The translations under genes and the position numbers were made by a program. Below are positions 28,361 through 33,345 of a DNA stretch of 64,000 nucleotides, in pieces. The notes below the pieces were generated by a model. It was not told the DNA's origin. It worked only from the letters and a program-made list of their open reading frames with translations, and ran no database searches. Origin of the DNA: Alkalinema sp. FACHB-956 (GTDB taxonomy: Bacteria; Cyanobacteriota; Cyanobacteriia; Leptolyngbyales; Leptolyngbyaceae); the NCBI RefSeq assembly GCF_014697025.1, contig NZ_JACJRC010000006.1, positions 1-64,000 on the forward strand, given 5' to 3'. Within the stretch, counting starts at the first letter, position 1. Every line of letters begins with the position of its first letter.

Positions 28361-29788
28361 CTAGGGGTCGGCGTCTAAGGCAATGCCTCGTATCGCGTAG
28401 TCCAGCAACTGCATAGGATGGAGCACGGGCACCGATTTGCCTTGCAGGGCTAAATGCTTGGAAATTTGTACAAAACAGCCAATATTGGCGGAGGCAATGA
28501 CTTGTGCGCCCGTATTGGTCAGATTCGTCACCTTTTGTTGTCCCAGCTCCGCAGCCACCTCCGGCTGCAGGATGTTGTAAATTCCCGCACTGCCGCAGCA
28601 CAGAGCCGCATCGATCGGTTCCCGCAGTTGCACCCCAGGAATCTGGCGCAGCAATTGCCGGGGCTGGACACTGATCTTTTGACCATGAATCATGTGACAG
28701 GCATCTTGATAGACCAGCGTTAATGGGGCGGTCTGCAACGGTTGCAAGGGAACCGTTAAGCCCACGTCCGCCAAAAATTCCTGCACATCCTTGACCCGAT
28801 CGACAAATGCCTTGGCCCGATCGGCATAGTCTGCATCCTCTTGGAGAATATGGCCGTATTCCTTCAATGTATGGCCACAACCAGAAGCATTGATCAGTAC
28901 ATAATCCACCCCCGCCTGGGCAAAGGTATCAATCATTTGCTTGGCCAGGGTTTGGGCTTGGGTTTCTTCGCCCTGGTGGTGGGACAGCGCACCACAACAG
29001 CCTTGACTTTTGGGAATCACGACTTCGCAACCATTTGCGGTCAGAACTCGCACCGTTGCTTCGTTCACCTCTGGATTAAACAACCGTTGCACACAGCCCA
29101 AAATCAGACCCACCCGATAGCGTTGCTGGCCCACCGCTGGAACCACTTCCGGCAGTCGATCCTGAAAGGCTTGGGGGGAAACCTCCGGCAGCATGTCTTC
29201 CATGGCCGCCAATTGGGGGGAAATGCGTGGGAGCAGTTTGAGCGATCGCAACCACTTTTGCAATCCAGATTTCTGGTACAGCACCACAGGCCGCAGGAGC
29301 GCCCGCAGCCGCTCGGGATAGGGGAAGGTCTGAAAAATTAGGTTCCGCAGCAGCTTTTCAGGCAGCGATCGGGGATGGTTGCGGGCCACCTGCGATCGGG
29401 TAGCCTCAATCAACTGGTTGTACTGCACCCCAGAAGGACAGGTGGTGACGCAGGCCAAACAGCCCAAACAGGAATCAAAATGCTGCACCGTCGCTGGAGA
29501 CAGGGGAATCTGACCTTCATTCACCCCATCCATCAGGTAAATCCGACCGCGCGGCGAATCCATTTCCGTCCCTAGGACGCGGTAGCTGGGACAGGTGGAC
29601 AGACAGAACCCGCAATGGACACAGGCGTCAATCAGTTTCGGATCGGGCGGATTTTGTGGATCGAAGCCCTTTAAGCTGGCCAACGCATCACTGATTGAGG
29701 TGGATGCTGCATCGATCGGCAAATTTGCCTGGGTGGGTTCACGGGTATCCCCGATTGAGGGGGCGGTCGAAGTCTCTGGTGCTTGCAT
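28361..29788 (-). CDS. glcF: Glycolate oxidase iron-sulfur subunit
   Basis: GlcF is the iron-sulfur subunit of glycolate dehydrogenase, which oxidises photorespiratory glycolate to glyoxylate. The two ferredoxin-type motifs are CVHCGFCLSTCP and CLGCLACVTTCP. Two CCG domains follow with GCCGAL and LCCGSAG, expected to bind a further cluster. Length (475 aa) is slightly over the E. coli protein because of an N-terminal Thr/Ala-rich stretch of about 35 residues. The gene follows glcE by 17 bp on the same strand, which supports a shared complex. GlcD is not in the window. Confidence 0.9.
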   Translation of the reverse strand: MQAPETSTAPSIGDTREPTQANLPIDAASTSISDALASLKGFDPQNPPDPKLIDACVHCGFCLSTCPSYRVLGTEMDSPRGRIYLMDGVNEGQIPLSPATVQHFDSCLGCLACVTTCPSGVQYNQLIEATRSQVARNHPRSLPEKLLRNLIFQTFPYPERLRALLRPVVLYQKSGLQKWLRSLKLLPRISPQLAAMEDMLPEVSPQAFQDRLPEVVPAVGQQRYRVGLILGCVQRLFNPEVNEATVRVLTANGCEVVIPKSQGCCGALSHHQGEETQAQTLAKQMIDTFAQAGVDYVLINASGCGHTLKEYGHILQEDADYADRAKAFVDRVKDVQEFLADVGLTVPLQPLQTAPLTLVYQDACHMIHGQKISVQPRQLLRQIPGVQLREPIDAALCCGSAGIYNILQPEVAAELGQQKVTNLTNTGAQVIASANIGCFVQISKHLALQGKSVPVLHPMQLLDYAIRGIALDADP

Positions 29789-29805
29789 GATTCTGCTCCG
29801 TTTCC

Positions 29806-31125
29806 TTAAATTCCACCGATAAACCGACCGGGACTGAACAGTCGCTGCGGATCAAATTGCTGTTTGATGGCTTGCATCATGGCCAAGGCGGCTCCGCGCT
29901 CTCCCCAGATATCCATTTGCTGTTTCAGGGCGATCGGCGCTTCTTGCACGGTCAAAAATCCACCGGCGGCTTGACAGATCGATCTGGCTGCGAGCAATTG
30001 CGTCGATCGAATCGTGGCTGGCAAAACCAGTTGACCTAAGCCACTACCCAAATGGAGCCTTGCGCCTAATCCCGGCAATTGCGTTTCCCATTGCAGGAGT
30101 TGCGCGATCGCCCCTGAGGACTTCATGCCTATTTTGCAGGTTATGCGATCGGTCTGATCCGTTGGAGTCATACATTCTCCCAAGCGTCTCCATAGATCGC
30201 CCTCCGTTTCCGGGGGCACGATCGTGGCAGCTAAGCCTAAGGTCGTCGCCAAGTCAACGCAGCGCTGACTCTGTTCCTGCACACTTTCGCGAATACTTTG
30301 GAATCTGACTAGGAGTGCTATGGCATCACCTAGCTGGAGGTGGGAACTGACACGGGCTGAAATCGCATCCAGGGCGATCGGGGTCAGGGCGGAATTCAAT
30401 AAGGTTTGCGCGGCTTGGCCAATACGATCGGGCGCTCCGGAGAGCACCACCGTTTGCACCGTTTCTGGAATAGGATAGACCCGCAGCGTCACCTGGGTGA
30501 TGACGCCCAAGGTGCCATAGGAGCCCGTTAACAGCTTCATCAGGTCATAGCCCGCTACGTTTTTCACCACGCGCCCCCCTGCTTTAACAAGCTGCCCATC
30601 CGATCGCACAAAGGTCACCCCTAGCACCATATCCCGCACGCTGTTATAGCGATGGCGCAGGGCTCCCGTATCCCCCGTGGCGATGATGCCGCCGATCGTG
30701 GCGTGATTGGGATAGCTGGGGTCAATCGCTAAAAACTGCCCCGCAGTGGCTAAACTTCGTTGTAATTCCGCCAAGGTCAACCCCGCTTCCACCGTGACGG
30801 TTAAGTCCCCCACCGCATGGTCAATCACCCGATTGAAGGGAGCCATCCTGAGGAAGACGATCGGCCTAGAGGAATGGGCCAAGCCCCCCCATCCCAACTT
30901 ACTACCCTGCCCCATCGGCACCACCGCACAGCCCAAGTCCTGCGCTTGCACCACCATGGTACTCAGTTCTTCCAGCGTCTGCGGCGTCATCACCCCAACT
31001 ACCGTTTGCTGGGGCGCGATCGCTCGGTGCCAGGTTGCTTGTAGCGCTGGGGACACCTCGTCCCAAAGCTGCATCCGATCGCCGTCCCACCTTGCTGCCA
31101 ATTCTTTCACGATCGTGTTTTGCAC
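29806..31125 (-). CDS. glcE: FAD-binding oxidoreductase, glycolate oxidase subunit GlcE-like
   Basis: This is an FAD-linked oxidase of the vanillyl-alcohol-oxidase fold. The N-terminal FAD domain shows VVPMGQGSKLGWGG, HATIGGIIATGDTGALRHRY, the GGRVVKNVAGYDLMKLL motif and GSYGTLGVITQVTLRVYP, the pattern of GlcE, the smaller flavoprotein of glycolate dehydrogenase. The start appears to be a GTG at 31125 (MQNTIVKELAARW); an exact 11-bp duplication crosses it. A later ATG (M18) is possible. glcF follows after 17 bp, so the two are almost certainly co-transcribed. Confidence 0.86.
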   Translation of the reverse strand: MQNTIVKELAARWDGDRMQLWDEVSPALQATWHRAIAPQQTVVGVMTPQTLEELSTMVVQAQDLGCAVVPMGQGSKLGWGGLAHSSRPIVFLRMAPFNRVIDHAVGDLTVTVEAGLTLAELQRSLATAGQFLAIDPSYPNHATIGGIIATGDTGALRHRYNSVRDMVLGVTFVRSDGQLVKAGGRVVKNVAGYDLMKLLTGSYGTLGVITQVTLRVYPIPETVQTVVLSGAPDRIGQAAQTLLNSALTPIALDAISARVSSHLQLGDAIALLVRFQSIRESVQEQSQRCVDLATTLGLAATIVPPETEGDLWRRLGECMTPTDQTDRITCKIGMKSSGAIAQLLQWETQLPGLGARLHLGSGLGQLVLPATIRSTQLLAARSICQAAGGFLTVQEAPIALKQQMDIWGERGAALAMMQAIKQQFDPQRLFSPGRFIGGI

Positions 31126-31478: not shown

Positions 31479-32624
31479 ATGCCCAAGTTCCAGATTCTCA
31501 TTGTTGAAGCCGATGCCATCCTCGCCCAAGCGGTCAAAACCCGTTTATTACAGGCAGGGTATGAAGTCGCGGGTTTAGTAGCGGATGGAACAACAGCGAT
31601 CGCCCTTGTACAGCAACGGTTGCCTGACCTCATCCTGATGGGAATTCACCTTCAGGGTACCCTCGATGGGATTGAGACAGCGGATCAACTGCGGGGGATT
31701 TGCGATCGCCCCGTGGTTTACCTGACCAACGAGACGCAGCCCCAAACCTTTGAACGGGCCAAAGCAACCCATCCCTATGGGTATCTTCTGCATTCCTGTT
31801 GTGATCGGGAACTCATCACCACGATCGAACTGGCGATCGCTCGGCATCAAGCAGAATCTGCGCTCCGGGAATCACTACAGCAACAGCAAGAGATCTGCGA
31901 GATGCAAGCTCGCTTTGTATCGATGGTGGCCCACGAGTTTCGTAACCCCCTCAATTCAATTTTATTCTCAACAGAATTATTAAATCGCTACGGTACCCAA
32001 CTGGCTGACGATAAACGAGATGCTTACTTTCAGCGAATCCACGGATCGATTCGCCGCATGCATCAACTTTTGGATGATGTCCTGACGATCGGAGAAGCGG
32101 AGGCTGGCAAGTTGACTTACCAACCACAGCCGTTGAACCTTCTTCAGGTGTGCCAGGATGTCCTGCACGATCTCCAACCCTCCGAGGGGTTCACCCACCC
32201 TGTGGTTTTTACGTACTCCCCCGACTTGCTCCATGACCGAAATACTCAACATTGCTTAGATGAACGCCTTTTACGCCACATTTTGGGGAACTTACTCTCC
32301 AACGCAATTAAGTATTCTCCCCAAGGTCAAAGTATTTTCTTTGACGTAGTGTGTAACAAAGAAGAGGTAGTCTTTCGGATCCAAGATCAGGGCATTGGAA
32401 TCCCGATTTCAGACCAAGCTCACCTCTTCCACGAATTCCACCGAGCCAGCAATGTTCGCACCATTCCCGGTACAGGGCTGGGATTGGCGATCGTCAAACA
32501 ATGTGTTGACCGGCATGACGGCCATGTGGAATTTCACAGTGAGGTGGGTCAAGGATCGACGTTTACGGTGACCCTACCGTTGGCCCAGACCTTGGTACAT
32601 CCGCCTTCTTCCGTGGTGGCTTGA
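31479..32624 (+). CDS. REC-histidine kinase hybrid with degenerate receiver
   Basis: An N-terminal receiver-like domain (1-120) is followed by a HisKA domain with FVSMVAHEFRNPLNS (His152) and an ATPase domain with N box (LSNAIKYSPQG), G1 (DQGIGIPISDQ) and G2 (GTGLGLAIV). The kinase half looks fully active. The receiver does not: where DxxMP-type proteins have the phospho-acceptor Asp, this one reads DLILMGIHL with Gly55, and the conserved Lys is His105 (GYLLHS). The receiver is therefore a probable pseudo-receiver acting by binding. The protein has no membrane helix. The next gene, 46 bp downstream, is a response regulator, so they form a pair. Confidence 0.85.
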   Translation: MPKFQILIVEADAILAQAVKTRLLQAGYEVAGLVADGTTAIALVQQRLPDLILMGIHLQGTLDGIETADQLRGICDRPVVYLTNETQPQTFERAKATHPYGYLLHSCCDRELITTIELAIARHQAESALRESLQQQQEICEMQARFVSMVAHEFRNPLNSILFSTELLNRYGTQLADDKRDAYFQRIHGSIRRMHQLLDDVLTIGEAEAGKLTYQPQPLNLLQVCQDVLHDLQPSEGFTHPVVFTYSPDLLHDRNTQHCLDERLLRHILGNLLSNAIKYSPQGQSIFFDVVCNKEEVVFRIQDQGIGIPISDQAHLFHEFHRASNVRTIPGTGLGLAIVKQCVDRHDGHVEFHSEVGQGSTFTVTLPLAQTLVHPPSSVVA

Positions 32625-32670: not shown

Positions 32671-33345
32671 ATGAAGACAATTTTGGTGATTGAGGACGAT
32701 AAAAACGTCCGGGAATGCTTGATAGACCTACTGGAAGTTGAAGGATTTCAAACGATCTCGGCCTGTGATGGGCCAACGGGACTAGAGCTAGCCCAGCAGC
32801 AACAACCGGACATGGTGCTGTGTGATGTGCACATGCCGGAGGTGGATGGCTTTACGGTTCTACACCAAATGCGCCAGAATCCTGATACGTCGGCATTGCC
32901 GTTTATCTTTCTAACAGCTCGGACAACCAAAGCTGATTTGCGCCGAGGCATGGAGTTGGGCGCAGATGATTATCTGTTCAAACCATTTACACCGGATGAG
33001 CTCTTCGCAGCAATTGCAACGCGATTGGACAAATATGCTGCATTAACCCAACATTTGAATACGGGAGCAGGAGAAGACATCAGTAACCATCACAATGGTT
33101 TATTGAATTACTTCTATCAAGAACTCCGTAATCCTTTGTCTAACCTGAATGTTGTGATTCACCTTTTGCAAGAGGAGCATCAGGACTGGCAAACGATCGC
33201 GACCAATTCTGACTATGCCAAAGAACTGGCAATCCTGCAACAGGTTTGCGCCCTGCGAGAAACATTAACCCCTGAAAGTGCAGCGCTGTTGTCTGAATGC
33301 CCGATCTCATCGGTGCTCTCCCACAGCCCACCCCTCGCAGCCTAG
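32671..33345 (+). CDS. Response regulator with HisKA-like tail lacking the histidine
   Basis: Residues 1-120 are a complete receiver: ILVIEDD, phospho-acceptor Asp52 in VLCDVHMPEVDG, Thr82 and Lys104 in DDYLFKPF. The C-terminal part resembles the dimerisation helix of a histidine kinase, LLNYFYQELRNPLSNLN, but Gln150 stands where the phospho-accepting His would be, and no ATPase domain follows. There is no DNA-binding domain, so it probably acts by protein contact. ATG at 32671 (MKTILVIEDD) is preferred over GTG at 32656. It follows the hybrid kinase closely on the same strand. Confidence 0.85.
   Translation: MKTILVIEDDKNVRECLIDLLEVEGFQTISACDGPTGLELAQQQQPDMVLCDVHMPEVDGFTVLHQMRQNPDTSALPFIFLTARTTKADLRRGMELGADDYLFKPFTPDELFAAIATRLDKYAALTQHLNTGAGEDISNHHNGLLNYFYQELRNPLSNLNVVIHLLQEEHQDWQTIATNSDYAKELAILQQVCALRETLTPESAALLSECPISSVLSHSPPLAA

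Follow-up and report, generated by a model that had tools for sequence, protein, structure and literature searches.

The locus studied here, within a stretch of 64,000 nucleotides from Alkalinema sp. FACHB-956 (the whole stretch is called the window), raises the question of what a response regulator may do whose C-terminal tail resembles the dimerisation (DHp) part of a HisKA histidine kinase without its histidine, and whether this defect belongs together with the damaged receiver of HK2, the kinase encoded just before it. The regulator gene contains the following features:

32671–33345, plus strand: response regulator gene, 224 amino acids, ATG at 32671 and stop codon ending at 33345, with full-length relatives.
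32680–33015, plus strand: intact receiver domain of the regulator (amino acids 4–115; PF00072, E 1.6e-29).
33118–33120, plus strand: codon CAA for Gln150, which replaces the phospho-accepting histidine of the H-box (YQELRNPLSN).

A GTG five codons 5' of ATG 32671 is a possible alternative start. The acidic pair, the phospho-accepting Asp, the Thr/Ser and the Lys of receivers have well-established roles, and the residues E8/D9/D10, D52, T82 and K104 mark the protein as a response regulator; D52 and K104 are almost invariant in the alignment of its relatives. A Pfam search found no HATPase match in the regulator, which thus lacks the catalytic domain of a histidine kinase, and with Gln150 in the H-box it is also without the histidine that a HisKA kinase or an Hpt phosphotransfer protein would use. 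The conserved tail of about 100 amino acids after the receiver separates it from the single-domain CheY-like proteins. Against NCBIfam, it reached the family's own cut-off in none of the matches listed (25 of 103). The window's genome seems to hold one member of this family, which scores 115 bits with a profile of the tail; the next match, an ORF of 784 amino acids, scores 65 bits.

The nature of this tail is the first point to settle. By itself the regulator matches the HisKA family PF00512 under the Pfam cut-off (E 0.025 at full length, 0.0066 for the tail alone), the match covering amino acids 149–181. Twelve of 13 relatives' tails match PF00512 at E <= 0.1, the best at 1.5e-6, and 14 families other than PF00512 are each matched by one of the 13 (best 2e-4). 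When the profile built from these 13 tails was run against 177,635 PDB sequences, eight matched at E <= 0.01 (best 4.6e-6), seven of them named as histidine, sensor or hybrid kinases and one as Ethylene response sensor 1, and in a profile-profile comparison it matched the DHp helices of HK2 with E 3.5e-6 and probability 87.6. Chance likeness to HisKA is ruled out by these three sets of results, and the two hairpins, with 16% identity over 55 aligned columns, are distantly alike. Across 388 cyanobacterial genomes the top matches listed for the tail profile are short ORFs, scoring up to 154 bits, and from about 2e-22 downwards the matches listed include long ORFs, which are presumably kinases. 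The hairpin matched no DNA-binding Pfam family. Two helices are predicted:

33079–33171, plus strand: predicted helix 1 of the DHp-like hairpin (amino acids 137–167), holding YQELRNPLSN; pLDDT of the tail model about 50–62.
33187–33264, plus strand: predicted helix 2 of the hairpin (amino acids 173–198), with the conserved residues E+35, R+38, E+39 and L+43; pLDDT of the tail model about 55–78.

Modelled as a single chain, the tail forms two long helices with low confidence (mean pLDDT 62, pTM 0.27); this low-confidence model found no match in the PDB with Foldseek at E <= 10 and none with VIA-align. The full-length model is poor, with pLDDT below 50 at amino acids 83–106, 110–141 and 218–224. 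The preliminary description of this DNA had read the protein as a complete receiver followed by a HisKA-like C-terminus, with Gln150 replacing the histidine in YQELRNPLSN and the ATPase domain missing. The receiver, the replacement and the missing domain stand as it gave them, and the HisKA likeness is borne out by the sequence profiles; the weak structure model adds little to it. We regard the tail as a predicted hairpin without histidine that is related by sequence to the HisKA DHp.

Second, we asked how widely this design is shared. Sixty-one of 69 tail-profile matches with frames of 179–320 amino acids, picked among the matches listed, were studied, the window included, and a 114-amino-acid ORF with a tail match (genome G015) was excluded; a peptide-pattern search added 15 named loci, 12 of them duplicating profile-search stretches. 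The filter, a score of at least 70 bits with our own tail profile and no ATPase match, passed 76 proteins, which became 64 when identical ones were collapsed. Ten of the 13 rows of the profile have Gln at the histidine position, which may slightly favour such proteins, and the peptide patterns contain FYQ or ELRNPLS, so that the loci found by pattern alone (L063–L065) are biased to the motif. The family members studied span 15 cyanobacterial families, by genome labels and among the matches listed. A receiver match is present in all 64 relatives except L063. At that locus (L063:3914-4255) the receiver-coding part of the regulator is missing and the tail ORF shares bases with the end of HK2; the locus has no N bases and no clear ATG, and may reflect a deletion, a pseudogene or a draft assembly error.

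The H-box histidine is missing from 62 of the 64 non-redundant cyanobacterial relatives, where the position reads Q in 38, E in 13, I in 3, V in 3, L in 2, H in 2 and S, D and M in 1 each. The columns around it are kept (E/D+1 in 58, R+3 in 59, P+5 in 63, S+7 in 56), and so are the hydrophobic ones (L-5 in 60, L+16 in 63, L+43 in 54). Position +4 is Asn or Thr in 41 relatives and another residue in 23. Nineteen close orthologues, grouped by tail and gene order, stand out: all of them read Q-E-x-x-N (positions 0, +1 and +4), a pattern that varies in the other 45. Eighteen of these orthologues were found by protein or profile searches and L063 by peptide pattern alone. In eight of eight close family pairs computed, omega was 0.00–0.24 for the tail and 0.00–0.13 for the receiver, rough values given that several dS exceed 1, which indicates that the tail is under purifying selection. 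A recent, local decay of the H-box is ruled out, since the histidine is missing in all 19 orthologues and nearly all relatives, and the comparison indicates that the regulator without histidine is an old and conserved cyanobacterial design.

Third, the neighbouring kinase has to be considered, because the preliminary description had paired its damaged receiver with the regulator's missing histidine. Its features are these:

31479–32624, plus strand: gene of the partner kinase HK2, 381 amino acids, with receiver, HisKA and HATPase domains, ending 46 bases before the regulator ATG.
31494–31826, plus strand: degraded receiver of HK2 (PF00072, E 2.3e-13), with A11, G55 and H105 at active-site positions.
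31905–32108, plus strand: HisKA (DHp) domain of HK2 (PF00512, E 2.9e-16), with His152 (31932–31934) in AHEFRNPL.
32259–32585, plus strand: HATPase domain of HK2 (PF02518, E 1.3e-30).

The best NCBIfam model for HK2 among the 25 of 135 matches listed, the scytonemin-biosynthesis sensor kinase NF045595, gives 276.8 bits against a cut-off of 865 bits, so that HK2 is not a member. In 18 of the 19 orthologues a co-directional kinase gene immediately precedes the regulator, the 19th (L057) being cut by a contig end. In the wider family this holds for 31 of 64 members, namely these 18 and 13 of the other 45, when a neighbour is counted only if it is directly upstream, co-directional, within 300 bases and equipped with a good ATPase domain. 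Each of the 13 kinases adjoining non-orthologous members scores at least 90 bits with the DHp profile, in which the L070 kinase is itself a row; the kinase adjoining L055 was seen as its ATPase part alone. The remaining 33 members have no adjacent co-directional kinase by these measures, five of them being unclear cases (L057 and L103 are close to the ends of their contigs; at L090, L102 and L112 a kinase or fragment falls below the thresholds).

Of 18 readable loci, 15 have an intact HK2 receiver; in the other three, which include the window, it is damaged or missing. L070, the 19th row of the kinase alignment, has an intact receiver in another architecture and was left out of the 18. The preliminary description was right about the preceding gene, a kinase with His152 and an HATPase domain behind a degraded receiver, and the pair is conserved in other cyanobacteria, whereas a lack of such conservation would have refuted its view. 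Its view that a broken receiver plus working kinase complements a working receiver plus broken dimerisation domain does not hold, because 15 of 18 loci have an intact kinase receiver beside the same kind of regulator without histidine; the regulator's defect therefore does not compensate for that of the kinase. Judged by their distribution, the two defects differ in age, the missing histidine being old and shared and the decay of the HK2 receiver young and local.

What accompanies this decay is the absence of a third gene. In 14 loci a PAS-bearing HisKA_2 kinase gene, HK1, stands directly before the HK2-regulator pair (orthologues L052, L053, L054, L056, L058, L059, L060, L061, L062, L067, L069, L080 and L081, and the more distant L096). 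Pfam read the HK1 domains in 12 of these loci (10 + 2), with GAF also in five of the 12, and the remaining two genes are 67–68% identical to a Pfam-read HK1. No HK1 precedes the pair at the window, L051, L095 or L063. In six genomes that carry HK1 its orthologue scores 884–1667 bits; only partial matches, of 194, 117 and 163 bits, came from the window's genome (99.98% complete), G010 (L051) and G007 (L095), and the draft genome of L063 gave no HK1 match at E 1e-30 or better. The search of the window's genome scored 119 of 139 candidates, and a second HK1 query, which scored all 143, gave the same picture. Upstream of the pair in the window, where HK1 would stand, there are genes of the opposite strand (28361–31125, minus strand), which we take to resemble glycolate oxidase subunits, an iron-sulfur protein and an FAD-binding protein. 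At L090 a kinase-like ORF of 1133 amino acids (L090:219-3617), 36% identical to HK1 over 497 amino acids, ends 4 bases before the family regulator frame, with no HK2 between.

The acidic pair, Asp and Lys of the HK2 receiver are kept in all 14 loci that carry HK1. At the four loci without HK1 the receiver is degraded (window), has lost its acidic pair (L095), is gone (L051) or is intact (L063), a difference of 14/14 versus 1/4 for which Fisher's test, ignoring kinship, gives p 0.005. The kinase tree places L051 and L095 as sisters (95/93), for which reason their losses may be one event; they are also sisters in the regulator tree (80/73), and the window is not firmly placed. The link between HK1 and the receiver rests on one or two loss events and one exception, in the draft genome of L063. 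The regulator branches of the window, L051 and L095 are long (1.2–1.96, against a median of 0.12), with L061 at 0.94, and their HK2 branches are shorter (0.52–0.63; L061 0.21). The long regulator branches may point to relaxed or changed constraint after HK1 loss.

Because HK1 precedes the pair in 14 loci and the draft genomes with degraded receivers show no HK1 orthologue, the unit was apparently a three-gene cascade in the ancestor, of which the window has a shortened form. Most simply, the HK2 receiver would take its signal from HK1 and decay once HK1 is lost, HK2 and the regulator being kept. The loci without HK1 amount to a natural experiment, in which three of four have the receiver presumably fed by HK1 degraded or gone.

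What, then, does the regulator act on? Since its hairpin cannot carry phosphate, has no likeness to DNA-binding domains and keeps its H-box face, we infer an output by protein contact, and the regulator's targets are probably other signalling proteins, not DNA. In HisKA kinases the conserved H-box stretch is the part that meets receivers and the ATPase domain. We propose that HK1 would signal into the HK2 receiver and that HK2 would phosphorylate Asp52 of the regulator, whose phosphorylated receiver would then free or expose the hairpin. The hairpin would dock either a receiver or a kinase, acting as a brake or adaptor, and in the Q-E-x-x-N clade it might also dephosphorylate receivers. The window's lineage would have lost HK1, and its HK2 receiver would have decayed, leaving HK2 and the regulator as the remaining working core. 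Taken as a whole, with a hairpin effector without histidine, protein contact inside signalling and the loss of HK1 in the window's lineage, this cascade is the reading that we tentatively favour, at somewhat short of an even chance.

The hairpin might instead be a plain dimerisation module, through which phosphorylation would shift the oligomeric state of the regulator, with a partner outside two-component signalling as its real output. The conserved leucines at -5, +16 and +43 are in keeping with a helical bundle; outside the orthologue clade the histidine position varies. However, the conserved residues at +1, +3, +5 and +7 seem, in our judgement, to be kept too strictly for the core of a mere dimer, and we consider this explanation rather unlikely, if still a serious one.

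A more specific role would be that of a dedicated receiver phosphatase made from a kinase, whose hairpin would only remove phosphate, from its own or another receiver. The HisKA phosphatase motif is H-D/E-x-x-T/N (PMC3510030, PMC7005713); kinase but not phosphatase activity depends on the acid at +1, and phosphatase but not kinase activity on the Thr or Asn at +4 (PMC3510030). The clade differs from such phosphatases in reading Q-E-x-x-N, with Gln for the histidine, and in tethering its hairpin to a receiver; it has the residue required at +4, which is Asn in 19 of 19 orthologues and Asn154 in the regulator, and its motif would allow phosphatase activity. Work on HK853 reports that the protein without its ATPase domain was a phosphatase in vitro at pH 8, and that the nucleotide-bound ATPase domain stimulates the activity and the histidine helps to place the water (PMC7005713). 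A third paper states that the histidine is not essential for HisKA phosphatase activity, and argues against phosphatase activity as the general role of kinases without histidine (PMC12632262). A phosphatase role for the whole family was rejected, with Asn or Thr at +4 in only 41 of 64 relatives, and so was the HK2 receiver as the sole target of the tail, given that three genomes with Q-E-x-x-N in the tail have this receiver decayed or missing. If the phosphatase reading is true, the hairpin would have to act, in the window's genome, on its own regulator or on a receiver elsewhere, since the HK2 receiver is dead there. We hold a purely phosphatase function to be unlikely.

The preliminary description had further suggested that the two proteins may form heteromers through their paired H-box helices. 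The regulator's hairpin would then pair with the DHp helices of HK2 and so tune or block the kinase. The tight gene pairing in the orthologue clade and the HisKA likeness common to both hairpins would suit this proposal, but it meets the low identity between them, the failure of the complementary-defect logic and, as a family-wide rule, the 33 of 64 members without an adjacent co-directional kinase, on account of which we judge it quite improbable. That the regulator is a drifting relic of a receiver-kinase deprived of ATPase domain and histidine, with a receiver useful on its own (CheY-like or as a phosphate sink), is very improbable: receiver-HisKA-HATPase kinases of 366–384 amino acids among the best non-family matches are a plausible source, the regulator branches are long in the window's lineage and L063 has lost the receiver-coding part itself, but the tail's omega is low in every pair computed, the H-box columns other than the histidine are strongly kept, with Q-E-x-x-N in every orthologue, and the family matches reach across 15 cyanobacterial families.

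Other signalling genes lie near members of the family. Six receiver-HisKA-HATPase kinases close to family members have an H-box without histidine as well (L107:4766-5926, L108:6212-7366, L109:6213-7433, L093:1752-2861, L097:2277-3431 and L112:1847-3046; H-boxes ALPYELNTPL, TLPQEISSSL, ALPRELMVPL and ALPQELDAPL), although each keeps a G-box-like motif or more; they are possible further pseudo-kinases. Receiver-GGDEF-EAL proteins follow family members at L064:4372-6123 and L108:4311-6083, a possible link to c-di-GMP, and receiver-bearing ORFs of 574–598 amino acids lie near family members at L084, L086, L102, L103 and L109.

Loss of the histidine is rare among HisKA domains (722 of 76,471, 0.9%), and a pseudo-histidine kinase is defined as a kinase-derived protein that lacks at least one kinase function and is retained in a signalling network, both according to PMC12632262. 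The sequence part of this definition fits the regulator's tail, with its lost histidine and its purifying selection. A survey of thermophilic cyanobacteria lists CheY-like regulators and regulators of unknown output (PMC9953108), classes under which regulators like the window's could be filed; PMC5108060 concerns other receivers. We recognised no description of a response regulator with a HisKA output lacking histidine in the open-licence literature searched, so that the use of such a domain as response-regulator output is apparently new, pseudo-kinases themselves being already known. The family offers a conserved output of this kind, a rigid Q-E-x-x-N in one clade and natural variants in the others, and together with the pattern of HK1 loss this opens the cascade's logic to bench tests on harmless cyanobacterial proteins.

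Finally, the regulator can be set beside systems that share some of its parts. The cyanobacterial receiver-HisKA-HATPase kinases at L008, L011–L013, L016 and L018, with 46–54% identity over the aligned part, share the order of the first two parts but keep the ATPase domain. In Synechocystis the gene of a multi-sensor kinase reportedly lies beside a response regulator gene, as Slr1759/Slr1760 (Hik14/Rre8), and a mutant without Slr1760 has reportedly been described; large PAS kinases likewise precede the family members L084, L085 and L110. The pseudo-histidine kinase DivL of Caulobacter has DHp-type helices that lack the histidine and serve in contacts to other two-component proteins, and it retains an ATPase-like domain and sensor domains, whereas the window's regulator has the hairpin alone, as a response-regulator effector. 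DivL is named in PMC9430884. The same paper describes Osp of Rhodobacter sphaeroides, a receiver-type inhibitor that acts on the kinase CckA and not on DNA, much as we propose here for the regulator; Osp, however, is a single receiver without the Mg-binding acids and the lysine, whereas here the receiver is intact and is followed by a DHp without histidine (PMC9430884).
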